Shown here: positions 39,989 to 50,065 of the stretch, piece by piece
How positions within the stretch are numbered: position 1 is the stretch's first letter
Layout: each line of letters begins with the position of its first letter
Source: an uncultured Pelagibacteraceae bacterium
GTDB lineage: Bacteria > Pseudomonadota > Alphaproteobacteria > Pelagibacterales > Pelagibacteraceae
Reading direction: 5' to 3'
NCBI GenBank assembly: GCA_902591755.1
Contig: CACJBX010000001.1
Span: forward strand, 35,001-99,000
Length of the DNA: 64,000 nt
Program-made: the position numbers and the translations under genes
Notes under the pieces: model-generated
Told to the model about the DNA's origin: nothing
Databases searched by the model: none
The model's input: only the letters and a program-made list of their open reading frames with translations

Positions 39989-40024
39989 TTGAGCTATTAT
40001 ATTTGTTTTTTAATTTGAAATGAA

Positions 40025-41080
40025 TTAGTTTTTAGCTTGTTTAGGTTGTTTACTTAACTTTTCTACATTCTCTGTATTGATAGCTCTTTCAATCTGCTCT
40101 GGATCTTTTATATTTTCTAGTGTCCGCGTAATAGATCTGGCATCTTTTCCAAAACTGTCGACGACTGTCATGGCCTCCTCTAATTTTTTTCTTAATTTAT
40201 AAATATTATCGAAATGAGTTGAAAATCTAGTGCTGATTGTTTTTAAATGATCATAGATTTCTGTTGCGTGCTTTTGAACTTTCAAAGTTTGAAATCCCAT
40301 ATGTAGAGATTGTAAATAAGCTGAGAGAGTATTAGGTCCTAAAATTACAACTTTATACTTTTTCATTATTTCTTGCGTCAACAGCTCTTTATTAACAGGA
40401 TCTTGGTAAGAGCTTAATTCTGAAAATAAACTTTCTGTTGGAGCATAAACAATTGCGAAGTCTGTAGTTTTAGGAGGATTTATATATTTATCATTAACTG
40501 ATTTTGCTTTATCCCTAAAAGCTTTTGCTAAATTTTTTCTTGCATCAGCAGCGGCCTTTTTATCCTCATCTTTAAATGCATCCTCTATGGCTTTAAATTT
40601 ATCTACAGGAAAATGACTATCTACTGGTACAAGCACATCCTCTTTAAGTTTGATAGCAAACTCAACATTTTCACTCGTATCTTCTTTCATTTTAACATTA
40701 GATAAATATTGTGAAGCTGGTAACAAATCCTCTAATAAAGATCCTAAACTGAATTCAGCTAATGTTCCAAATTTTTTCACCCCTGCAAGTATCTTATTTA
40801 TGCCTCTCTGGCTTTCATTTAAATCTTTTACCTGCATATTAAATGCTTCAACTTTTTGATTTACTGAAGTTAGTGTCTGAGTCATATCTCTTGTGACATC
40901 TTTAGATAAACTGTTAAAAGATGCACTCATTGTATTAAATGAACTATTAATACTATCCCTTAAATTATTAATTTCTTGAGAATTATCTTTTGGTTCTGAT
41001 TTATTTCTTCTCTGAGTAATTAATAGGTAAATTATTATTACCATTAAAACTAAAATTAAATATAATATCGAATCTTGCAT
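40025..41080 (-). CDS. rmuC: DNA recombination protein RmuC
   Basis: Proposed nuclease-related protein that limits DNA inversions. An N-terminal membrane helix (about 3-21) is followed by a coiled coil (about 27-100) and the conserved RmuC domain, with VPVDSHFPVDKF near 152-163, DFAIVYAPTESLF near 207 and ILGPNTLSAYLQSL near 247. 351 aa, usual length. Third in a row of DNA-processing genes on the minus strand. Confidence 0.92.
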   Translation of the reverse strand: MQDSILYLILVLMVIIIYLLITQRRNKSEPKDNSQEINNLRDSINSSFNTMSASFNSLSKDVTRDMTQTLTSVNQKVEAFNMQVKDLNESQRGINKILAGVKKFGTLAEFSLGSLLEDLLPASQYLSNVKMKEDTSENVEFAIKLKEDVLVPVDSHFPVDKFKAIEDAFKDEDKKAAADARKNLAKAFRDKAKSVNDKYINPPKTTDFAIVYAPTESLFSELSSYQDPVNKELLTQEIMKKYKVVILGPNTLSAYLQSLHMGFQTLKVQKHATEIYDHLKTISTRFSTHFDNIYKLRKKLEEAMTVVDSFGKDARSITRTLENIKDPEQIERAINTENVEKLSKQPKQAKN

Positions 41081-41171
41081 GCTATTAATTATGAATATTC
41101 CTATTTTATCAAAGTATACAAGTAAAAAAATTAAAAAAACAAATAAAATTGTAATATAATTAATTAAAATA

Positions 41172-41303
41172 ATGGAATTTCAATTAACCTTTAAAATAAT
41201 AATTATAGTAGGTGTTTTAATAGCTGTTTATGCAACTTTAAGAAATTTAGATGTAATTAAAATTATTCTTATCTATTTAAAGGACTTGTTACTAAGAAAA
41301 TAA
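41172..41303 (+). CDS. Candidate 43-residue single-pass membrane protein
   Basis: A short ORF with ATG at 41172 and TAA at 41301-41303, in the spacer between rmuC and hisG on the opposite strand. The product has a hydrophobic stretch KIIIIVGVLIAVYATL (about 8-23), then RNLDVIKIILIYLKDLLLRK, giving a basic C-terminus and a possible second amphipathic helix. It fills the spacer and overlaps the hisG end by 12 bases, like real gene pairs here. I do not recognise a family. Chance ORFs in AT-rich DNA are a real alternative. Confidence 0.45.
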   Translation: MEFQLTFKIIIIVGVLIAVYATLRNLDVIKIILIYLKDLLLRK

Positions 41304-41975
41304 CTTAATAATGTTTTTTAAACCTTTTTTTGAAAAACTTTTTTTTGATAAAAAAACACATGCTTGAGATTTAAGAATTTCACCGTCTTTAAGTATACGT
41401 AAATTGTTACTTTTAATTGTTTTCCCAGTCGAGCTTATGTCAGTAATTAAATTAGCTGAACCAGTAAAAGGATAAACTTCCGTAGCGCCCAAACTTTTGA
41501 TGATTTGAAATTGTGTTACACCTTTTGAAAATAAGAAGTCTCTAGTCAAATTGGGATATTTAGTTGCAACTCTAAGTCTTTTCTTTTTTTTATCTCTAAA
41601 TTCAAACGCAATTTCTTCTAAGTCTGCAACTGTTTGAACATCAATCCACGTATCAGGAATAGCAACAACCAGATTTGCTTTTCCGAAATCGTATTTTTTA
41701 ACAAGGTTTATTTTTTTTTGTGTATTAAATTCACTTTCTTTAAATAAGTCAAAACCAGAAAAACCTATATCTAGAGAACCATCCCCTAGTCTTTCTATAA
41801 TCTCTCTAGCATGTAAATATAATATTTTTAAATTTTGTTTATTTTTAATTGATCCAATGAGATCCCTTTCCCCTCTTTCTGAAATAAGTTTTAGTTTTTT
41901 TCTTTTAAAAGTCTTTAAAACGTCTTTCCTAAGTCTGCCTTTGCTTGGTATACCTATGTTAATTGTATTTTTCAT
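41292..41975 (-). CDS. hisG: ATP phosphoribosyltransferase, short form
   Basis: First step of histidine synthesis, joining ATP and PRPP. 227 aa with no C-terminal regulatory domain, so it is the HisG-S type that needs HisZ. The start GIPSKGRLRKDV, the DIGFSGFDL loop and the phosphoribosyl-type segment EVYPFTGSANLITDI are visible. HisZ is encoded directly upstream with a 3-nt gap. Confidence 0.94.
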   Translation of the reverse strand: MKNTINIGIPSKGRLRKDVLKTFKRKKLKLISERGERDLIGSIKNKQNLKILYLHAREIIERLGDGSLDIGFSGFDLFKESEFNTQKKINLVKKYDFGKANLVVAIPDTWIDVQTVADLEEIAFEFRDKKKKRLRVATKYPNLTRDFLFSKGVTQFQIIKSLGATEVYPFTGSANLITDISSTGKTIKSNNLRILKDGEILKSQACVFLSKKSFSKKGLKNIIKLFS

Positions 41976-41978
41976 AAT

Positions 41979-43028
41979 TCACTTTAAGTTTATTGCTGCC
42001 CCAACAGCTGGCACTTTTTTTTTCGATCCTAAATCAGAAATTAATTGATCATATCTTCCACCATTAAATATATTTTGAACTTTATTTTTTGATTTAATGT
42101 CAATTTTAAACACCATACCTGTATAGTATTCGAGTTGTCTTCCAAAGGCAGTTGAAAAAATTACATTAAGCTTTGAAACTTTTTTATTTGATAATGGAAA
42201 ATATTTTTGATCAACTGCTAGATTAATTTTATTTTTTTTAAAAAATTTATTTAATTCCTTTGCTGCTTTGTTGATTGGACATTTGATCTTTAAAAACCCT
42301 TTAATAATTTTAGAAACATTTCTACCCTTGCTTGGACGTCTTGGGTCTTTAATCTTTTTATCAAACCTCTTTAAAATTTCATCAATGGATCTACCAGCAA
42401 TTATTGATGACTTATTTTCTTTGATCATTTTTAGATAACGTTTTTTATCAACCTCTACAATTGTTGGATCAACATCTGAGTTTGTCTCTAATCTTTTCAG
42501 CAAGTCGTTGAAATAGCTTTCTCTCCAAAAATGTCTTGAAAGTCTCAATTTCCATCTCTTAGGGATATCCAATTTTGAGATTAAAAGATTAAATATTTCC
42601 ACATTTCCTATTGTCAATGTGCCTGTAGAATACTTTAAGTTTTTTATTGATTTAAGAGAAGTATCAATTATTTCTTTATCATCTTTTTTCTCATCTTTTG
42701 AACCAATTATTTCAAATCCAATTTGGTCTCTAATAATTGAGTCTTTTTTATTATTTGATTTTCTATATGCCTGACCGCTATAAAATATTTTTTCTTTAGT
42801 TTTAAGATTATTTTCAAGGTACCTAAGGCAAGAAACTATTGTTAAATCAGGTCTTAAACATAACTCGCTTCCATTTTGATCGATAAATGAAAAGATAAAC
42901 TTTCTAAAATTTTCGCCTGATCTTTGAACTATGTGATTAGCTTCAATTACAGATGGTAATTCAATGTATTTAAATCCTTTAGATTTTACAGATCTAAGAA
43001 TTTTTTCAGATAAATTTTTTGATTTCAT
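41979..43028 (-). CDS. hisZ: ATP phosphoribosyltransferase regulatory subunit HisZ
   Basis: Histidyl-tRNA-synthetase-like protein without charging activity that forms a hetero-octamer with short HisG and confers histidine feedback. The class II-like core shows CLRPDLTIVSCLRYL near 58-72 and QIGFEIIGSKD. The C-terminus has GGRYDQLI and AVGAAINL. 349 aa, no anticodon-binding domain. Its start overlaps hisS by 23 bases. Confidence 0.9.
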   Translation of the reverse strand: MKSKNLSEKILRSVKSKGFKYIELPSVIEANHIVQRSGENFRKFIFSFIDQNGSELCLRPDLTIVSCLRYLENNLKTKEKIFYSGQAYRKSNNKKDSIIRDQIGFEIIGSKDEKKDDKEIIDTSLKSIKNLKYSTGTLTIGNVEIFNLLISKLDIPKRWKLRLSRHFWRESYFNDLLKRLETNSDVDPTIVEVDKKRYLKMIKENKSSIIAGRSIDEILKRFDKKIKDPRRPSKGRNVSKIIKGFLKIKCPINKAAKELNKFFKKNKINLAVDQKYFPLSNKKVSKLNVIFSTAFGRQLEYYTGMVFKIDIKSKNKVQNIFNGGRYDQLISDLGSKKKVPAVGAAINLK

Positions 43029-44400
43029 TGATTAAATTTTCTTTTGGAAATGTAACTTGATTATTTTCTCCTTTAACCCCAAGAAGATTTTTCAAGGTGA
43101 TGTTGTTATCTTTAAATTCATTTTCCCCACAAATTACAGCGACCGGACACCCTCTTTTATTGGCATAAGTTAATTGTTTCCCGAGATTTTTTTTACTGTC
43201 TAAAAAGATTTCTGAATTAATATTATTTTTTCTCAAAGTTTCTAAAATTTCGTAATAATTTTTTAAATATTTTTCATCCATCACACAAATAATAACCGGC
43301 TTTTGTTCGTTGATTTCTGGGTTTAATTGGATCATCGCAAATAACAATCTATCAACACCAATACTTACACCTGTACCAGGTATATCTACTCCCTTAAATC
43401 TAGATATTAATTTATTGTATTGTCCTCCAGAGCAAATGCTTCCAATATCTACTTCTTTGCCTTTGTTATTTTTTGCTTTAAAACTAAGATTAGTTTCAAC
43501 ACAAAAGCCATCATAATATGCAAGACCTCTTACAATTGTAAAATTAGTTTTAATTTGACCAGAATAATTTCCAAATTTTAAAATTTCTAAAAGATCTTCT
43601 AATTCTTTAATTCCCTCTTGTGTTAAAGGATTTTTAAAATTTTGTTTAAGTTTACTCAAATCATTAATCTTTAAAAAATCTAAAATCTCAGATACTTGGT
43701 CATCACTTAGATTAGCACCTTTTGTAATTGCACCACTTTTATCTTTTCTCTCTTTTTTTAATAAATCCTCAACACCTCTTAATCCAAAACCAGGTTTATC
43801 AAGCTTGTCTATAGCTCTCATAACCTTGGTCTGTTTAGTGTCTGGAATCTTTAGATCTTTGATTATACCTTGAATTATTTTTCTGTTGCTGACGTTAATG
43901 ATAAATTGATCTGTTTTTAAACCACACTCCAATAACGTGCTTGCAATTAAATTACATAATTCTGCATTCGCTTGAGCTGGGTTAACATTTCCTACAATAT
44001 CACAATCTGCTTGCGTAAATTCCCTGTATCGCGCATTTCCAGCTTTCTCATTTCTAAAAACATTTTGGATTGCATATCTTTTATATATTGATGGAAGATC
44101 TTGATTGTTTAGAGCAACAAATCTCGCTAATGGACTTGATAAATCATAACGAAGGGTAATATCTTTAGTTCCGTCTTTAAAAGAAAATACATCAGACATA
44201 GGATTACTTTCGTCCTCTGCGAGAAAGGATCCAATATTTTCTGCAATTTCAAAAGATGGCGTTTCCAAAGGGTCAAACCCGTATTTTATAAAATTATTCT
44301 CTATAACTTTTAAAAGTTTCTTTTTAAGAAGTAATTTTTTATTCCACCTATCTTCAAATCCCTGAGGCAACCCAGGAGTTAATTTATTTTCTTTACTCAT
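43006..44400 (-). CDS. hisS: Histidyl-tRNA synthetase
   Basis: Charges tRNA-His. Class II motifs are present: TLRYDLSSPLARFVA (motif 2 region entry), QNVFRNEKAGNARYREFTQAD (as two parts, about residues 106-126), the histidine-binding GGQYNKLI and the GTGVSIGVDRL motif 3. A C-terminal anticodon domain follows. I chose the ATG at 44400 (MSKENKLTPGLPQGFEDR); the open frame continues upstream through the tRNA-His gene, whose CCA end is only 5 nt before this ATG. There is no room for a ribosome binding site outside the tRNA. Confidence 0.95.
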   Translation of the reverse strand: MSKENKLTPGLPQGFEDRWNKKLLLKKKLLKVIENNFIKYGFDPLETPSFEIAENIGSFLAEDESNPMSDVFSFKDGTKDITLRYDLSSPLARFVALNNQDLPSIYKRYAIQNVFRNEKAGNARYREFTQADCDIVGNVNPAQANAELCNLIASTLLECGLKTDQFIINVSNRKIIQGIIKDLKIPDTKQTKVMRAIDKLDKPGFGLRGVEDLLKKERKDKSGAITKGANLSDDQVSEILDFLKINDLSKLKQNFKNPLTQEGIKELEDLLEILKFGNYSGQIKTNFTIVRGLAYYDGFCVETNLSFKAKNNKGKEVDIGSICSGGQYNKLISRFKGVDIPGTGVSIGVDRLLFAMIQLNPEINEQKPVIICVMDEKYLKNYYEILETLRKNNINSEIFLDSKKNLGKQLTYANKRGCPVAVICGENEFKDNNITLKNLLGVKGENNQVTFPKENLINEIKKFI

Positions 44401-44405
44401 TTTTT

Positions 44406-44480
44406 TGGTACCCTGGCTTGGGATCGAACCAAAAACTGAAGTTCCACAAACTTCCGTGATAACCATTTCACCACCAGGGC
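44406..44480 (-). tRNA. tRNA-His (anticodon GTG)
   Basis: On the minus strand a 75-nt cloverleaf: acceptor GCCCTGG with CCAGGGT, D-stem GTGA/TCAC with normal G18-G19, anticodon stem GAAGT/ACTTC around loop TTGTGGA (anticodon GTG), T-arm TTTGG/CCAAG around TTCGATC, then A73 and an encoded CCA. A73 rather than C73 is the alphaproteobacterial tRNA-His pattern. The first pair is G1-U72; one further G precedes at 44481. It lies directly upstream of hisS. Confidence 0.95.
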
Positions 44481-44481
44481 C

Positions 44482-44706
44482 TATGTTTATTTTATATTAA
44501 TTGTTGTTAAATTTAAATTTATTAAATAATTAAATAGCTAGCGTGCAGCCAGCATGTGTATGATGTCTGTGAAGTGAATTGAACTTATTATTTAATATAG
44601 TCATAGAGCTTAAATAGCATTTAATTCTAGAAATACAAGAATGAATTGTATAGGAATAGCAAACCCAATGGGTTTTATACTCCTATACAATAATGATGAA
44701 TTAGAA
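44482..44706. other. 225-bp spacer between csp and tRNA-His, with a relatively GC-rich patch
   Basis: No gene is evident. The right part (44646-44690) is the csp downstream hairpin. Around 44535-44575 a patch with GCTAGCGTGCAGCCAGC is clearly richer in G and C than the surrounding DNA and can form a 6-bp stem (GCTAGC with GCCAGC, one G-U). It lies upstream of the tRNA-His/hisS unit and must contain that promoter. It might encode a small RNA; I cannot assign one. Confidence 0.4.
44646..44690 (-). terminator. Long hairpin downstream of csp
   Basis: A 45-nt near-complete stem-loop: TTGTATAGGA pairs perfectly with TCCTATACAA (10 bp), an internal loop of five bases on each side follows, then AAACCC/GGGTTT (6 bp) around AAT. 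It begins 17 nt after the csp stop. The minus-strand tail (TTCATTCTTGTATTTC) is only moderately T-rich, so it may terminate, or protect and process, the csp mRNA end. Confidence 0.55.
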
Positions 44707-44916
44707 TTAAGAGGTTTTTTGCAGTTTTACTGCGGCAGGACCTTTTTCTCCGTCTTCAACTTCAAATGTAATTTCGTCACCTTCGTTTAAGAATCTTAAA
44801 CCAGCTTCTCTAACAGCAGAAGCATGCACGAATACATCTTTTTCTTTATCTTCTCGTTCAATGAAACCATAACCTTTTTTTCCATTAAACCACTTTACTT
44901 TACCTTTTAGACTCAT
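44707..44916 (-). CDS. Cold-shock domain protein
   Basis: A 69-residue single cold-shock domain, an RNA/ssDNA-binding OB fold. RNP1 is KGYGFIER (about 14-21) and RNP2 is [10 protein letters not shown] (about 26-35). It starts [15 protein letters not shown], standard for CspA-type proteins. Flanked by a 5' UTR hairpin and the strong downstream hairpin; sits after tRNA-Phe. In a genome with few regulators such proteins are probably constitutive RNA chaperones. Confidence 0.95.
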
Positions 44917-44940
44917 TTTACTCTTTCTTTATTAGTTTAT

Positions 44941-44956
44941 CTTTGTTTATACAAAG
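44941..44956 (-). promoter_or_regulatory. Hairpin in csp 5' leader
   Basis: CTTTGT and ACAAAG form a 6-bp stem with a 4-base loop, 24 bases upstream of the csp start. Cold-shock mRNAs often carry structured leaders that influence translation; here the element is small and its role is inference. Confidence 0.35.
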
Positions 44957-45025
44957 AATGTGTTTTGTTATTAGATTTCTAAATTAGATGCAAGTGATTT
45001 AATTGTCTATTATTGATCTTTTTGG

Positions 45026-45100
45026 TGGTGGCCTTGGTAAGAATCGCACTTACGACACATACCTTTTCAGGGTACTGCTCTACTACTGAGCTACAAGGCC
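45026..45100 (-). tRNA. tRNA-Phe (anticodon GAA) with altered elbow
   Basis: On the minus strand: acceptor GGCCTTG/CAAGGCC, D-stem GCTC/GAGC, anticodon stem GTACC/GGTAT around CTGAAAA (anticodon GAA), T-stem GTAAG/CTTAC, A73 and an encoded CCA. The D-loop is AGTAGTA, one base shorter than usual with no G-G pair, and the T-loop is TGCGATT, so T55 is replaced by G. It starts one base after the infA stop codon and is followed by csp. Confidence 0.94.
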
Positions 45101-45101
45101 A

Positions 45102-45317
45102 TTAAAATCTAAATGTTATACGACCCTTTGTAAGATCATATGGAGTTACTTCTACAGTAACATTGTCTCCCTGCAAAACTCTAATTCTGTTTTTTCTTAA
45201 TTTTCCAGCTGTATGTGCTGTAACAATGTGATTATTTTCTAATTTGACCCTAAACATTGCATTGGGCAAAAGGTCTATTACCTTTCCTTTAAATTCTAAA
45301 GAGTCTTGTTTTGACAA
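45102..45317 (-). CDS. infA: Translation initiation factor IF-1
   Basis: Small OB-fold factor binding the 30S A site. The 71 residues match IF-1 throughout: [22 protein letters not shown] (about residues 8-29, quoted in essence), [17 protein letters not shown] and the terminal [11 protein letters not shown]. It lies 2 nt downstream of hisD and its stop is separated from tRNA-Phe by one base, so its mRNA 3' end must be made by tRNA processing or be read through into the tRNA. Confidence 0.97.
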
Positions 45318-45319
45318 AT

Positions 45320-46606
45320 TTATAATTCTCCTAATCTTTTTTTAATTGATTTAGCATGTCCATCTAAACCTTCGTTAGTTGCAAGAGTTATAACTGATGG
45401 ACCAAGAGTTTCAATACCCTTTTTTGATAAATTTATGTATGAAATTTTTTTAATGAACTCTGAAACACTTAATCCACTTGAGTATTTACTGGTCATATTA
45501 GTTGGAAGAACATGATTAGTGCCCGGTACCCCATAATCTGTCATTGCCATCACTGCATATTTTCCCAAGCAAATAGAACCAGCATTCTTAATTTTTGGAA
45601 TTAAAGAATTATAATTTTTTACATTAAGCTCCAAGTGCTCTGGGCCCACCTTATTAATTATTTCTGCAATTCTATTTTCTGAATTTTCGTAGATTAGTAT
45701 ACCATTCGTCATTAAACTTTTTTTTGCAATTGAGCTTCTTGAAATGCTTTTAAGTTGATTTGTTATTTCATTCTTAGTTTTTTTTAGAATGTTTTTGTCT
45801 TTTGAAATTAAAATACACTGGGCAAGAGAATCATGTTCAGCTTGAGCAATTAAATCACTTGCCAACCATTCTGGATTAGATTTGTTGTCACATACAATTA
45901 AGACCTCTGAAGGTCCAGCTGTCATTGACTCAATTCCTATATCCCCAAAGACCTCTTTTTTTGCTGAAGCAACATATGAATTTCCTGGTCCTACAATTTT
46001 ATTCACAGGTTTAATTGATTTAGTTCCATATGCAGCAGCTGCTATTGCTGAAGGGCCGCCAATTGAATAAATTTCTTTAATTTTGCATTTTCTTGCAGCG
46101 TACAAAACTGAAGCATTTTGCTTTCCTTTGTAACCAGGATTAATCATTACAATTCTTTTAACTCCCGCAACGATTGCAGGTATTGTGCTCATTAAAACAC
46201 TAGATGGATAAGAAACTTTTGAACCTGGAACGTAGATCGCAACTGACTCGAGTGGAACATATTTATATTTCACTTTATTTTGGTACTTATCAATATATGA
46301 AACATCTTTGAATTTTTGAAGTGAATGGAATTTATAAATTCTATTATAAGCTGCATCAATCGCTTTTTTTACTTTTTGGTCCAAGGATTTAATGGAGTCT
46401 TTAATTTTTTTTGAGGTTGGAATAATCGTTTTATTTTTATTAAATCTTTTCTCATATTTTACTAGGGCTTTATCTCCATTTTTTCTAACATCTTTAATTA
46501 TATTTTTTACTGATATATAATCTGATCGAAGCTTATTTTTTCTTTTAGAAAGAAGATTATCCAACAATTTATCAAAATTCTTGTTTTTGGCAGAAATTAC
46601 TTTCAT
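45320..46606 (-). CDS. hisD: Histidinol dehydrogenase
   Basis: Oxidises histidinol to histidine in two NAD-dependent steps with a zinc ion. Visible signatures: [31 protein letters not shown], the zinc-site segment [15 protein letters not shown], and GPEHLEL near 328. 428 aa, normal. It lies in the alphaproteobacterial order murA-DUF2948-hisD-infA and apart from hisG/hisZ. Confidence 0.95.
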
Positions 46607-46607
46607 T

Positions 46608-46997
46608 TTATTTCTTTTTTAAATCCTCCAATGTTACCTCTATAATTTCAGAATAAAGGGTTATAAAACGATTATCTGAAAATAACAAATTAATTTCGTA
46701 TTGTTTATCCATTTTCAATACATCTATTCCCATCAGCTTTAATTTCAGTTTACTATCTTTTTGATCTATATTTTTTGCTACTACATTTTCTATAAATTCA
46801 AATTTACAAACACTTATAATGTAACTTTTTTTGTTATCTTTCAGAGATTTTCGAGTTAGGGACATTAAAAATATTTTATTTTTTTTAAGATATTTAATCT
46901 CTGAAATGCTTGTGGTTGAGTCCTCACAGTATGTAGAAATTATATTTAAACCATTGAGATCTCTTGCTAATATTTTGGATAAAAAATTTTTTACCAT
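46608..46997 (-). CDS. DUF2948 family protein
   Basis: A 129-residue protein of unknown function between murA and hisD, the usual position of DUF2948 in Alphaproteobacteria. Predicted alternating strands (KIFLMSLTRKS, YIISVCKFEFIENV, KLKLMGIDVLKM, YEINLLFSDNRFITL) suggest a small beta-rich fold. Its start overlaps the murA stop by one base. The family assignment rests largely on synteny and on the ending SEIIEVTLEDL. Confidence 0.6.
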   Translation of the reverse strand: MVKNFLSKILARDLNGLNIISTYCEDSTTSISEIKYLKKNKIFLMSLTRKSLKDNKKSYIISVCKFEFIENVVAKNIDQKDSKLKLKLMGIDVLKMDKQYEINLLFSDNRFITLYSEIIEVTLEDLKKK

Positions 46998-48265
46998 TAT
47001 GTTTTCATTTTTACTTTAATACCAAGTTTTCTTAATTTAGGTTGAAGATTTGAGTACCCTCTTAATCCATGATAAATTCGTGATATTGTTGATGATCCCT
47101 TTGCTACAATTGCACCCAATATTATTGAGAAAGTAGTTCTAAGATCTGATGAAATACAATCAGCAGAGTTCAATTTTTTTTCTCCCTTAATTATTGCAAG
47201 GTTTTTTTTAATTTTTATATCTGCTCCCATTCTATTAAGTTCGGGTACAGCCATAAATCTATTTGTAAAAATCGTTTCCTTAATTTTACTTTGCCCGAAA
47301 ATTCTTGTTAAAACAGGTATTAAAATGGGCAAACAATCTGTTGCAAACCCAGGCCATGGTCCAGTTTTGATGTTTATAGGTTTTAATTTTTTAATTGTAT
47401 TTAATTTTATATAATTTTTACTTTCATCAATTTTAAAACCTATTTTTTTTAATATCTTTAATTCTGAAGGTAAAAATTTAGGATTTATATTCACCACCTT
47501 TACACTGCCCTTTGTAATTGCTCCTATGCATAAATAACTAAATGCTTCTATTCTATCACCAATAATTTTATGATTACCACTTAACAGCTCTTTAACTCCT
47601 TTAATTTTTAAAGATCTTTTGCCAATAAACTTTATATTTGCGCCTGAGTTATTTAGGAATTTTATAAGATCTGTTACTTCAGGTTCTAAAGATATATTTT
47701 TTAGAACATGGGAACCTCTTACAAAAACTGAAGACATGATTAAATTTGACGTGCCTGTAACTGTAATTTTTGGAAACTTATAGCTCTTACCTACCAAACC
47801 ATTCTTTGAAGATATTTTCACATATCCCTTTTCCAAAACATGTTCAGCACCTAAACTTTTGAAACCTTCGAGATGCCAAGACGTATCACGAATTCCTAAT
47901 GCACAACCTCCTCCTTGAGCAACTCTTATGTTTTTCTTTGGATATCTTCCAAGTAAGGAACCCATGGTTAGAACTCCTGCTCGCATTGTAGATACCAAGT
48001 TATAGGGAACAGTCAATTTATGATCCTTTTTATTTGTAATAATCATCATCTTTTTTTTCTCTAAAATTTTTACTTTAGAACCTAAGGAAATTAAAAGATC
48101 TTTCATTGTAAAAACGTCTTGAACCAAAGGAACATTTCTTAAAATTACTTCTTTTTTAAAAAGAATAGATGCCGCCATAAGAGGAAGGCATGAGTTTTTT
48201 GCACCACTTATATTTACCATTCCATTTACGGCTTTGCTTGGGCCAGTAATTATAAATTTTTTCAT
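46997..48265 (-). CDS. murA: UDP-N-acetylglucosamine 1-carboxyvinyltransferase
   Basis: First committed step of peptidoglycan synthesis, transferring enolpyruvate from PEP. The start FIITGPSKAVNGMVNISGAKN and the two-domain EPT fold are typical. The catalytic loop reads AQGGGCALGIRD with the reactive cysteine (C115 class), so fosfomycin sensitivity would be expected from the family. The FATDCLPILIPVL substrate segment and TNRFM are present. 422 aa. Confidence 0.95.
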   Translation of the reverse strand: MKKFIITGPSKAVNGMVNISGAKNSCLPLMAASILFKKEVILRNVPLVQDVFTMKDLLISLGSKVKILEKKKMMIITNKKDHKLTVPYNLVSTMRAGVLTMGSLLGRYPKKNIRVAQGGGCALGIRDTSWHLEGFKSLGAEHVLEKGYVKISSKNGLVGKSYKFPKITVTGTSNLIMSSVFVRGSHVLKNISLEPEVTDLIKFLNNSGANIKFIGKRSLKIKGVKELLSGNHKIIGDRIEAFSYLCIGAITKGSVKVVNINPKFLPSELKILKKIGFKIDESKNYIKLNTIKKLKPINIKTGPWPGFATDCLPILIPVLTRIFGQSKIKETIFTNRFMAVPELNRMGADIKIKKNLAIIKGEKKLNSADCISSDLRTTFSIILGAIVAKGSSTISRIYHGLRGYSNLQPKLRKLGIKVKMKT

Positions 48266-48266
48266 A

Positions 48267-48818
48267 CTATTTTGATTTTGCTAAAGTTATACCAACTTGA
48301 CCTTGATATTTTCCTTTTCTATCAGAATAGGATACCTCTGGCTGGTCTCCACTGAAGAACAAAATTTGCGCTGCTCCACTATTTGCATACAATTTTATGG
48401 AGTTGCTTGTGTGATTTGAAAATTCTAAAACTAAGTTGCCATGCCAACCTGCCTCTAAGACTGTGGGGGGAGTTCCAAGTCCACATCTTGCGTAAGTACT
48501 CTTGGCAGTTACCAATCCAGTTACGTTTCTTGGCATTTTAAAATACTCAAGACTACTTGCCAGTGCGAAAGAATTTGGAGGAATTAAAATAGACTCTTCA
48601 CCTTTAACAGTTATAAAATTGTCCTCACTAAAATTCTTTGGGTCAGCTGTAGCTCCTTTTATATTTGTAAAAATTTTAAATTCAGAGCCGCATCTTAAGT
48701 CATAACCAAATGAGTTAAGTCCATGACTAATGCCTTTAGATACGCTTTCACTCACAAATGGACTTATCATCTCCTCTTTTTCTGCAAGTTCTTTAATTTG
48801 TTTATCGTTTAGAATCAT
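48267..48818 (-). CDS. dcd: dCTP deaminase
   Basis: Converts dCTP to dUTP, feeding thymidylate synthesis. The ISHGLNSFGYDLRCG start region, the ALASSLEYFKMPRNVTGLVTAKSTYARCG-like core (residues about 85-113) and the catalytic glutamate segment VLEAGWHG near 120-127 are diagnostic. 183 aa. It may start inside the small basic ORF upstream, which overlaps it by 17 bases. Confidence 0.94.
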   Translation of the reverse strand: MILNDKQIKELAEKEEMISPFVSESVSKGISHGLNSFGYDLRCGSEFKIFTNIKGATADPKNFSEDNFITVKGEESILIPPNSFALASSLEYFKMPRNVTGLVTAKSTYARCGLGTPPTVLEAGWHGNLVLEFSNHTSNSIKLYANSGAAQILFFSGDQPEVSYSDRKGKYQGQVGITLAKSK

Positions 48819-48915
48819 TTTTTTGGTTTTTTCGTTTGTGAATTTTTCTTTTCCTTAAATTTTTTTTAAGTGCTTTCTCGAGATCAAGCTTAGAAGGCTT
48901 TCTTTTAGAATTCAT
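48802..48915 (-). CDS. Candidate 37-residue basic protein upstream of dcd
   Basis: A short ORF from ATG at 48915 to TAA at 48802-48804. The product starts MNSKRKPSKLDLEKALKKNL and is followed by an Arg/Lys-rich tail; 17 of 37 residues are Lys or Arg. The composition resembles ribosome-associated or RNA-binding micropeptides. It occupies the whole spacer and overlaps dcd by 17 bases. Family unknown to me; the helix-forming first half and compact fit favour a real gene. Confidence 0.5.
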   Translation of the reverse strand: MNSKRKPSKLDLEKALKKNLRKRKIHKRKNQKNDSKR

Positions 48916-48923
48916 TAAAAAGA

Positions 48924-49118
48924 TTATTTTTTCTCAGGATTGGTAAGATGCTCCAAAGTTACAACTTGATCAATTGGTATTGTCTTATCTTCAGATTTAT
49001 TTGTTCCCTGCTTAGATTGTTTTTTGGCTCTTCGCTCAGCTAATTTCTTTTCTCTTTTAGCTTGCTTCTCCATTGCTTTAGCGCCTCTTGTAGATTTATA
49101 ATCGTAGTGAATTCCCAT
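48924..49118 (-). CDS. Small basic DUF-type protein (64 residues)
   Basis: I take the ATG at 49118 (MGIHYDYKSTRGAKAMEKQA), because the longer frame would read through tRNA-Thr. Residues 12-38 form a highly charged helix rich in Lys, Arg, Ala and Glu; the C-terminus IPIDQVVTLEHLTNPEKK is hydrophilic. It looks like small alphaproteobacterial proteins of unknown function. It stops 8 bases before the start of the 37-residue basic ORF on the same strand. Confidence 0.6.
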   Translation of the reverse strand: MGIHYDYKSTRGAKAMEKQAKREKKLAERRAKKQSKQGTNKSEDKTIPIDQVVTLEHLTNPEKK

Positions 49119-49210
49119 AAAATTACCAAAAATTATTATAGACTTAATAAAATAAAAAATTAAGTCAAAAATTTGAATTTTATTGATTTTTACACTATTT
49201 TTATTTACTC

Positions 49211-49285
49211 GCCCTTGTAGTTTTAGTGTTAAAACAGGCCCTTGGTAAGGGTCAGTCATGAGTTAGATTCTCATCGAGGGCACCA
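49211..49285 (+). tRNA. tRNA-Thr (anticodon GGT) with unusual D- and T-loops
   Basis: A 75-nt plus-strand cloverleaf: acceptor GCCCTTG/CGAGGGC (one T-G), D-stem GTTT/AAAC, anticodon stem GGCCC/GGGTC around TTGGTAA (anticodon GGT), T-stem ATGAG/CTCAT, A73 and encoded CCA. The anticodon arm matches alphaproteobacterial tRNA-Thr(GGU). The D-loop TAGTGTTA gives U19 and U14, and the T-loop TTAGATT gives A56, replacing the near-universal G19-C56 and A14. All stems are intact, which argues against decay. Confidence 0.85.
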
Positions 49286-49999
49286 TTACTTTTTAAAGAA
49301 AAATTTTCTTAAAATAAATGTCAGAACAAACAAAAATATTATAGCTGATATTGGTAAATAAATTTCTTGAGTTTTTAAAAGATCGAATATTTTTGGTAAT
49401 TCATCATTTTCATATATTTTTTTTTCTAAAGCTGATCCTAACGAACAAACAATAAATGCTTGAATAATAACTCCAAGTAAGGTTCCAAAAAAATAGTTTT
49501 TTAATTTTACATCGAATAATACAGGTATTAAATTTTGTATCTGTGTCGGAATACCACCAAGAAATCTAAGGAGGCCGACCGCTAAAAGCTGATTGTTTCT
49601 TATTTTGTCATTAAGATATTGATACTTATTTTGTATTTTTTCAATGATGTAGTTTTTAAAAAAATAATTAGCTACTACAAAAGTTACACTAGATCCTAAA
49701 GCAAAAGTTAACGAAAAAATTAAAGTTCCTAAGTAAGGTCCGAAAATATATCCACAAATCAACCCTAATGGAGACCCAAATCCTTGAAGTAAAGAAATCC
49801 AAACAATTCCAAATATAATAAATACAAAAGACGAAAATATTATATTATTTTGTTTAAAATTAATCAGATACTCACTATTTGATTTGAGAAAACTATATGA
49901 TGTTAATTCCTCAATACTTACATAAGTTAACAAGAAGTATAAAAACAATCCCAGGAATATAATATAGGCTAAACCTAACCATATTTTTACGTTTTTCAT
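49286..49999 (-). CDS. VTT-domain (TVP38/TMEM64 family) membrane protein
   Basis: About 237 residues with six or so hydrophobic segments (near 8-28, 52-72, 78-100, 107-125, 165-190 and 215-235). The core GFGSPLGLICGYIFGPYLGT and LLRFLGGIPTQIQNLI-type re-entrant segments match the SNARE-associated/VTT (DedA-related) superfamily. These proteins are implicated in lipid scrambling or undecaprenyl-phosphate and ion homeostasis. Start chosen at MKNVKIW (49999), third codon of a slightly longer frame. Ends directly against the tRNA-Thr 3' end. Confidence 0.82.
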   Translation of the reverse strand: MKNVKIWLGLAYIIFLGLFLYFLLTYVSIEELTSYSFLKSNSEYLINFKQNNIIFSSFVFIIFGIVWISLLQGFGSPLGLICGYIFGPYLGTLIFSLTFALGSSVTFVVANYFFKNYIIEKIQNKYQYLNDKIRNNQLLAVGLLRFLGGIPTQIQNLIPVLFDVKLKNYFFGTLLGVIIQAFIVCSLGSALEKKIYENDELPKIFDLLKTQEIYLPISAIIFLFVLTFILRKFFFKK

Positions 50000-50065
50000 A
50001 GTTTGCATATTTTAGATTTTACATTATAAGTACTTAAATTTTTAATACTACATAATTAAAATCTT

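Follow-up and report, generated by a model that had tools for sequence, protein, structure and literature searches.

A tRNA-His gene adjoining hisS

The locus studied here raises the question of how hisS, encoding histidyl-tRNA synthetase (HisRS), is expressed and controlled when the gene for its own tRNA lies immediately before its start codon. Within the 64,000-nucleotide stretch of DNA that we analysed (the window), a tRNA-His gene with anticodon gtg occupies 44406..44480 on the minus strand; it has an encoded CCA and a U72-A73 end, and was detected by ARAGORN and by RF00005 (57.3 bits). Its CCA ends at 44406, a spacer of five A residues follows (44401..44405, minus strand), and the hisS ATG is at 44400-44398. 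hisS itself (43006..44400, minus strand; TIGR00442, 342.9 bits against a cutoff of 286.75; PF13393) overlaps by 23 nt with hisZ (41979..43028, minus strand; NF008953, 404.7 bits against a cutoff of 384), beyond which lies hisG, encoding ATP phosphoribosyltransferase (41292..41975, minus strand; TIGR00070, 176.3 bits). The order on the minus strand is thus tRNA-His, hisS, hisZ, hisG, and on the 5' side of this region lie a cold-shock protein gene, a tRNA-Phe gene and infA.

A sequence-only reading of the window had described the succession of tRNA-His CCA, five A's and hisS ATG at 44400, and had added that a Shine-Dalgarno (SD) sequence cannot fit outside the tRNA. The sequence and ARAGORN confirm the first point, and the second holds as well. 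The observation is correct, and it is stronger than first stated.

Conservation of the joint and of the hisS start

We looked for the same arrangement in relatives. Of the 297 genomes of the order, 271 gave a hisS match at an E value no higher than 1e-60, and we examined 170 of them (the window's own genome, 29 others, and chosen sets of 60 and 80), 158 from the window's family, Pelagibacteraceae, and 12 from its sister family. A further set of 80 loci overlaps the examined genomes in species and is not counted as independent. Our finder, which by design accepts only sequences with a His anticodon loop and CCA, placed tRNA-His immediately upstream of hisS in 155 of the 158 Pelagibacteraceae genomes, which span seven genus labels; the joint is therefore conserved beyond the window. 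Two of the three exceptions are contig ends, one contig starting in the tRNA (L119) and one within hisS (L153). In the third (locus L247, genome G177) a tRNA-His was seen by eye before hisS with its CCA not encoded, the sole CCA-less tRNA-His among family genomes with a readable upstream region.

The spacer measured 3 nt in 4 genomes, 4 nt in 108, 5 nt in 28, 6 nt in 4 and 7 nt in 1, so that 145 of 155 genomes fall between 3 and 7 nt; among these 145 it reads AAAA in 99 and AAAAA in 16. The hisS start codon is ATG in all 155 genomes. The other 10 spacers are 23-47 nt long (loci L142, L144, L152, L154, L155, L171, L238, L239, L243 and L246). A perfect inverted repeat of at least 5 pairs is present in 8 of these ten long spacers, and of at least 6 pairs in 7, as might result from a tRNA cassette arriving with a trailer of its own.

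A conserved downstream hisS start with its own ribosome binding site would have contradicted the sequence-only reading. None was found in the 155 genomes: codons 2-25 hold no in-frame ATG, GTG or TTG in 130 of them and an in-frame ATG in one, and no SD-like 4-mer precedes any in-frame start in these codons in any of the 155. On the upstream side, a 486-aa open frame exists in the window from an in-frame ATG in the D-loop of the tRNA (44466), from which hisS could be translated as a longer protein. Such an open in-frame ATG inside the tRNA is present in only 8 of 155 genomes, the window included, whereas in 107 of 155 an in-frame stop lies somewhere in the stretch from the tRNA start to the hisS ATG, with a TTG or GTG still present after the stop in some of the 107. 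As a conserved mechanism a D-loop start is already unlikely; we rejected tRNA-internal in-frame initiation as not conserved and give translation from 44466 almost no credence.

Predicted transcription of hisS

Two promoter-like elements were identified in the window by consensus match only: P1 (44624..44652, minus strand), which precedes the leader ORF described below, and P2 (44489..44517, minus strand), a TTTAAA-17-TAAAAT element with a similar counterpart in relatives, which ends 8 nt before tRNA-His. The scan, also by consensus match, found no site between the tRNA-His 5' end and the hisS ATG. These two sites compare with 3.0 expected in shuffled sequence, the DNA being AT-rich and the matches weak. 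A TTTAAA/TATAAA pair reached the full score of 12/12 in 53 of 172 distinct upstream sequences versus 1 of 860 single-base shuffles; since the consensus was taken from the scored sequences themselves and the rows are related, this enrichment is weak support for a promoter.

Because the P2-like site ends just before the tRNA, the hisS mRNA probably carries tRNA-His at its 5' end. Together, the lack of room for an SD sequence, the lack of a promoter-like site after the tRNA and the lack of a downstream start suggest that the hisS message is most likely a tRNA fusion, which would most likely have to be cut, or be initiated beside a folded tRNA. We also considered whether the hisS start is hidden by folding and rejected this: in the joint's minimum-energy fold the A-run is paired with a U-run of the tRNA, but the z score is only -0.97. 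By eye, this U-run is missing from other tRNA types.

Replacement of tRNA-His bodies at the joint

While the position of the tRNA is fixed, its sequence is not, and the 155 genomes contain 39 distinct tRNA-His sequences. We compared these with a tree built quickly from the 136 distinct HisRS proteins of 156 loci, the further set of 80 being drawn on as well; 61 of its 133 inner branches are weakly supported and some branches are long. Eleven tRNA-His groups placed on this tree require 20 parsimony changes against a least possible 10, and on its starred branches alone two of the tRNA groups must each have changed at least 5 times. Close relatives with near-identical flanks and similar hisS genes can likewise carry very different tRNA-His genes. 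These different tRNAs amid like flanks, together with the excess of changes on the tree, indicate that tRNA-His has been replaced without its synthetase.

This variability is not confined to tRNA-His, and we rejected the idea that it is the only variable tRNA: tRNA-Phe at the same locus varies too, with 18 distinct sequences for each of the two across 176 loci. Of 28 isoacceptors compared pairwise among three genomes, 18 never drop below 90% similarity, while those for His, Phe, Thr(ggt), Gln and Arg(acg) reach only 56-73% in one or more of the pairs. The tRNA-Phe of the window (45026-45100), which lies one nucleotide from the infA stop codon, has the T-loop TGCGATT and an AG D-loop and is highly variable among relatives.

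Some features of tRNA-His persist through these replacements. A73 is kept in 38 of the 39 distinct sequences, and the base before position 1 is variable (T in 69, A in 53, G in 26 and C in 7 of 155 genomes); A73 without a conserved templated G-1 is the alphaproteobacterial type of tRNA-His. In genome G003, a single contig, ARAGORN reported 31 tRNAs for 19 amino acids and missed tRNA-His, and the sole candidate is the body before hisS (L028, 205065-205138), which has the D-loop AATAGTA and the T-loop AGCGTAA and is without the TpsiC motif. Elbow-variant tRNA-His genes were also noted at loci L010, L232, L241 and L246.

For the elbow residues we use positions 18 and 55, which are assigned by geometry and by conventional tRNA numbering. 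In the D-loop, GG accompanies T55 in all 25 of the tRNA-His sequences that have it, and AG accompanies G55 in 13 of 14, the exception (L152) having neither AG nor GG. The elbow-variant sequences keep the cloverleaf. The same two elbow states occur in tRNA-Phe, and tRNA-Val(gac) has an AGCGTAA elbow in G003 and G011. This pattern, in which positions 18 and 55 covary, suggests that some essential tRNAs have an A18-G55 elbow, and such divergent tRNA-His bodies would widen the range of working elbow sequences for an essential bacterial tRNA.

A second tRNA-His elsewhere would make the copy before hisS a decoy. We rejected this for G003, which is 99% complete by estimate, as neither ARAGORN nor a scan requiring the anticodon loop, paired stems and CCA found one. 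No second tRNA-His was found in the window's own genome (one among 25 tRNAs; 84.7% complete) or in G011 (one among 29 tRNAs). A phage or viral source of the odd tRNA-His genes was also tried and set aside: 50,697 phage records gave no match to the window's tRNA or to type C, and viral contigs contained no exact match to a core sequence of type C, nor to a single degenerate pattern covering types A and B. These searches covered the window's tRNA, type C and types A/B, and donors outside the sample are possible.

A histidine leader peptide and hairpin upstream of tRNA-His

Upstream of tRNA-His we found a short ORF followed by a hairpin, neither of which the sequence-only reading had reported. 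The ORF (44530..44604, minus strand) encodes a histidine leader peptide, MTILNNKFNSLHRHHTHAGCTLAI, and a His-rich ORF lies at the same place in relatives. Counting His in the last 12 residues of ORFs of 9-45 aa that end 30-150 nt before the tRNA, we found a leader ORF with three or more His in 110 of 155 genomes versus 0-1 in five rounds of dinucleotide shuffling; two or more were present in 152 of 155 versus 5-10 in the five rounds. A His leader ORF also precedes hisS in all 12 sister-family genomes. A short ORF with clustered His codons thus lies upstream of his genes, as in an attenuator.

Directly after the last His codon comes a terminator-like hairpin (44537..44553, minus strand) followed by TATTTAATTA, a poor U-run. 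It is the one terminator-like site in the scanned stretch, against 0.2 expected, and the leader folds better than its shuffles (z -2.60). Covariation was assessed in 72 of 74 representative leaders, which are related rows, with L115 and L124 left out. Six hairpin pairs are standard in 78.5% of cells versus 68.3 in shuffles and 20.6-55.0 when the positions are slid, and the covariation score is 0.328 versus 0.168 shuffled and 0.018-0.123 slid. Cells changed on both sides number 39 versus 12.2 in shuffles, while a slide of -3 gives 40; pairs with two-sided changes (3 versus 3.0 shuffled) and pair types (7 versus 8.1) are not raised. In the register of the window's hairpin, 22-23 of the 72 leaders are unpaired at inner positions, and many of these, by eye, form a variant hairpin in a shifted register (ATAGCC/GGCTAT and the like).

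A stalled ribosome would be able to cover the stem only from the final His codons. No antiterminator is evident; one single-sequence fold puts the hairpin inside an AU helix, and a search for Rfam leader families such as the his leader across 40000-50000 returned only tRNAs above threshold. On its anatomy, the histidine leader is a better candidate for feedback than the tRNA-hisS joint itself.

Between the cold-shock gene and the leader, at 44646-44690, a long inverted repeat TTGTATAGGA...TCCTATACAA was seen by eye; it is perhaps the terminator of the cold-shock gene. Its CTATACAATT arm, which overlaps the P1-like site, is also present in relatives, again by eye.

Tight joints between tRNAs and ORFs elsewhere

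We also asked how ordinary such a joint is in SAR11 genomes, a baseline that the sequence-only reading had not given. Counting ORFs of at least 35 aa that start within 12 nt of a tRNA, we found tight joints at 7 of 25, 8 of 32 and 6 of 29 tRNAs in three genomes (tRNA-His included; the window's own genome gave 7/25). By crude ORF calls in one SAR11 genome, the median gap between coding neighbours on the same strand is 2 nt, and 67% of such pairs lie within 12 nt of each other, overlaps included. An SD-like 4-mer precedes 168 of 1138 first-ATG starts.

In G003, for instance, tRNA-Leu(tag), tRNA-Leu(taa) and tRNA-Leu(caa) are followed in this way by genes for trigger factor, NAD kinase and an AMP-binding enzyme, respectively, tRNA-Pro by one for an NDUS4-like protein, tRNA-Glu by one for a GIY-YIG protein, and tRNA-Gln by one for a protein of the tRNA nucleotidyltransferase type that has a poly(A) polymerase head domain. 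In all three genomes the distance from tRNA-Gln to a similar ORF is exactly 3 nt (L305:416-1690 on the minus strand, G000 and G011), the domains having been checked in G003. The partner gene is possibly a CCA-adding enzyme, and this case is a second joint with a gene of tRNA function.

Since other tRNAs adjoin ORFs as tightly and the median coding gap is 2 nt, the form of the joint is ordinary for SAR11, and a tight tRNA-ORF joint need not itself be a sensor. What is unusual about the tRNA-His/hisS joint is its cognate pairing and its fixity. The sequence-only reading had gone further and proposed the joint as a feedback design. As stated, this is unsupported: equally tight joints (2-11 nt) occur before genes that have no relation to the adjacent tRNA, and the repeated replacement of the tRNA body and the 23-47 nt insert in 10 of 155 genomes also speak against it. 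Dedicated HisRS feedback is no more than a possibility.

Origin of the arrangement

Within 260 nt before hisS, no tRNA-His was found in any of the 12 sister-family genomes. The gene was found 1.4-2.4 kb upstream of hisS on the same strand in 9 of 10 that were searched, and in 7 of those 9 it lies 5 nt after tRNA-Phe; an SD-like 4-mer is present at 6 of the 12 hisS starts. Across the class, hisS matched at 1e-20 in 22 of 58 genomes, the window's own included. ARAGORN found no tRNA-His within the approximately 1.5 kb fetched around 22 loci from the 21 other genomes, some of these flanks being cut by contig ends and the weaker matches perhaps representing other HisRS-family members. The simplest reading of these gene orders is that tRNA-His moved next to hisS in an ancestor of Pelagibacteraceae.

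A model for the front of the histidine operon

The reading that we favour, and consider somewhat better than an even bet, is that this locus is the front of a histidine operon in which a leader attenuator, excision of tRNA-His and a leaderless hisS mRNA are combined, in the order P1, histidine leader peptide with hairpin, P2, tRNA-His, hisS, hisZ, hisG. The hisS message would be transcribed with tRNA-His at its 5' end or close to it, and the tRNA would be released by RNase P together with a 3' endonuclease that cuts within the A-rich spacer of 4-5 nt. From what is generally known of tRNA maturation, 3'-trimming exonucleases act on free ends, so that for a single transcript to yield both the tRNA and an intact message the endonuclease would have to cut within the spacer; a cut inside hisS would sacrifice the message. 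A leaderless or nearly leaderless hisS mRNA starting at its ATG would be left over, and excision with this outcome is our best reading of the joint. The leader peptide, going by its anatomy, would sense charged tRNA-His: on stalling at the final His codons, a ribosome would mask the hairpin, and transcription would continue. Starvation would in this way raise the tRNA, the synthetase and the first enzyme of histidine synthesis together.

Plain compaction offers an explanation with no regulatory meaning, in which tRNA-His moved before hisS, the gap shrank, and hisS is translated by the route used by other SAR11 genes that lack an SD sequence. The 2-nt median coding gap, the frequency of ORFs within 12 nt of tRNAs and the scarcity of SD-like starts speak for it; against it, a cognate pair has been kept in nearly all family genomes and seven genus labels despite many replacements of the tRNA body, and a leader peptide for the same amino acid precedes the pair. 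We regard compaction as quite conceivable but not probable. Autogenous control, in which HisRS would bind unprocessed tRNA-His 4-5 nt upstream of its start and block initiation or cutting, agrees with the nearly constant spacing and with A73 in 38 of the 39 tRNA bodies (the anticodon loop, required by the finder, is no evidence). A73 and the anticodon are, however, needed by any tRNA-His of this type, similar joints precede genes unlinked to their tRNA, and 10 genomes tolerate the long insert; we judge such control improbable.

A fuller version of the excision model, which we put forward tentatively and think rather unlikely as a whole, would have one cut produce both mature tRNA-His and the leaderless hisS mRNA, with uncut precursor, HisRS binding or charging setting synthetase output; the leader peptide would control the tRNA gene, and divergent tRNA cassettes, some with the A18-G55 elbow, would be exchanged at the joint while leaving it intact. 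If the leader does control the unit, the level of a tRNA would be set by its own charging, along with its synthetase and the synthesis of its amino acid, and this control, if true, would operate in a very abundant marine lineage.

Comparison with known systems

Most SAR11 strains studied carry A73 and no templated G-1, a feature common to a large alphaproteobacterial clade (PMC3937112). Our finding of A73 in 38 of 39 sequences with an unfixed base before position 1 agrees with this; the joint, the leader and the diversity of tRNA bodies are unmentioned in the available portion of that paper, which cites Wang et al. 2007 for discussion of a co-transfer of tRNA-His and HisRS into SAR11. In bacilli, a histidine leader peptide precedes hisZ and a hisS paralogue (PMC2965389), so that His codons lie before HisRS-family genes there as they do here; that case belongs to a different phylum, and the portion of the report at hand mentions no tRNA gene in the unit. 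Rhodobacterales have a cysteine uORF attenuator before cysS (PMC8632094). The main text of a 2009 survey of Pelagibacter RNAs, as far as available, contains neither hisS nor words beginning with histid- (PMC2704228). Among the open-licence papers listed, no title or opening of an abstract treats the tRNA-His/hisS joint, and earlier notice is possible.

Ribosome-mediated his attenuators consist of a His-rich short ORF followed by a hairpin before the his genes. The locus described here resembles them in having a His-rich ORF end with a hairpin right after it, upstream of hisS-hisZ-hisG, and differs in its one short hairpin, weak U-run and lack of an evident antiterminator, and in the tRNA gene that SAR11 places between leader and hisS. 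The ThrRS of E. coli binds a tRNA-like operator before the start codon of its own gene, thrS, and represses initiation. At hisS, too, a tRNA fold lies directly upstream of a synthetase start codon, but it is a real tRNA-His gene, the only copy found in G003 and in the window's own genome, and not a mimic, and binding by HisRS is hypothetical.

A further parallel in form is mitochondrial tRNA punctuation, where tRNA genes adjoin coding genes with few nucleotides between them. The joint likewise has no room for a leader, and excision of the tRNA would give a leaderless mRNA. Unlike mitochondria, SAR11 is a free-living bacterium in which the CCA is encoded and only some genes are so arranged. The tRNA-His/hisS joint would provide a clean test of whether tRNA excision makes leaderless messages in bacteria as it does in mitochondria.
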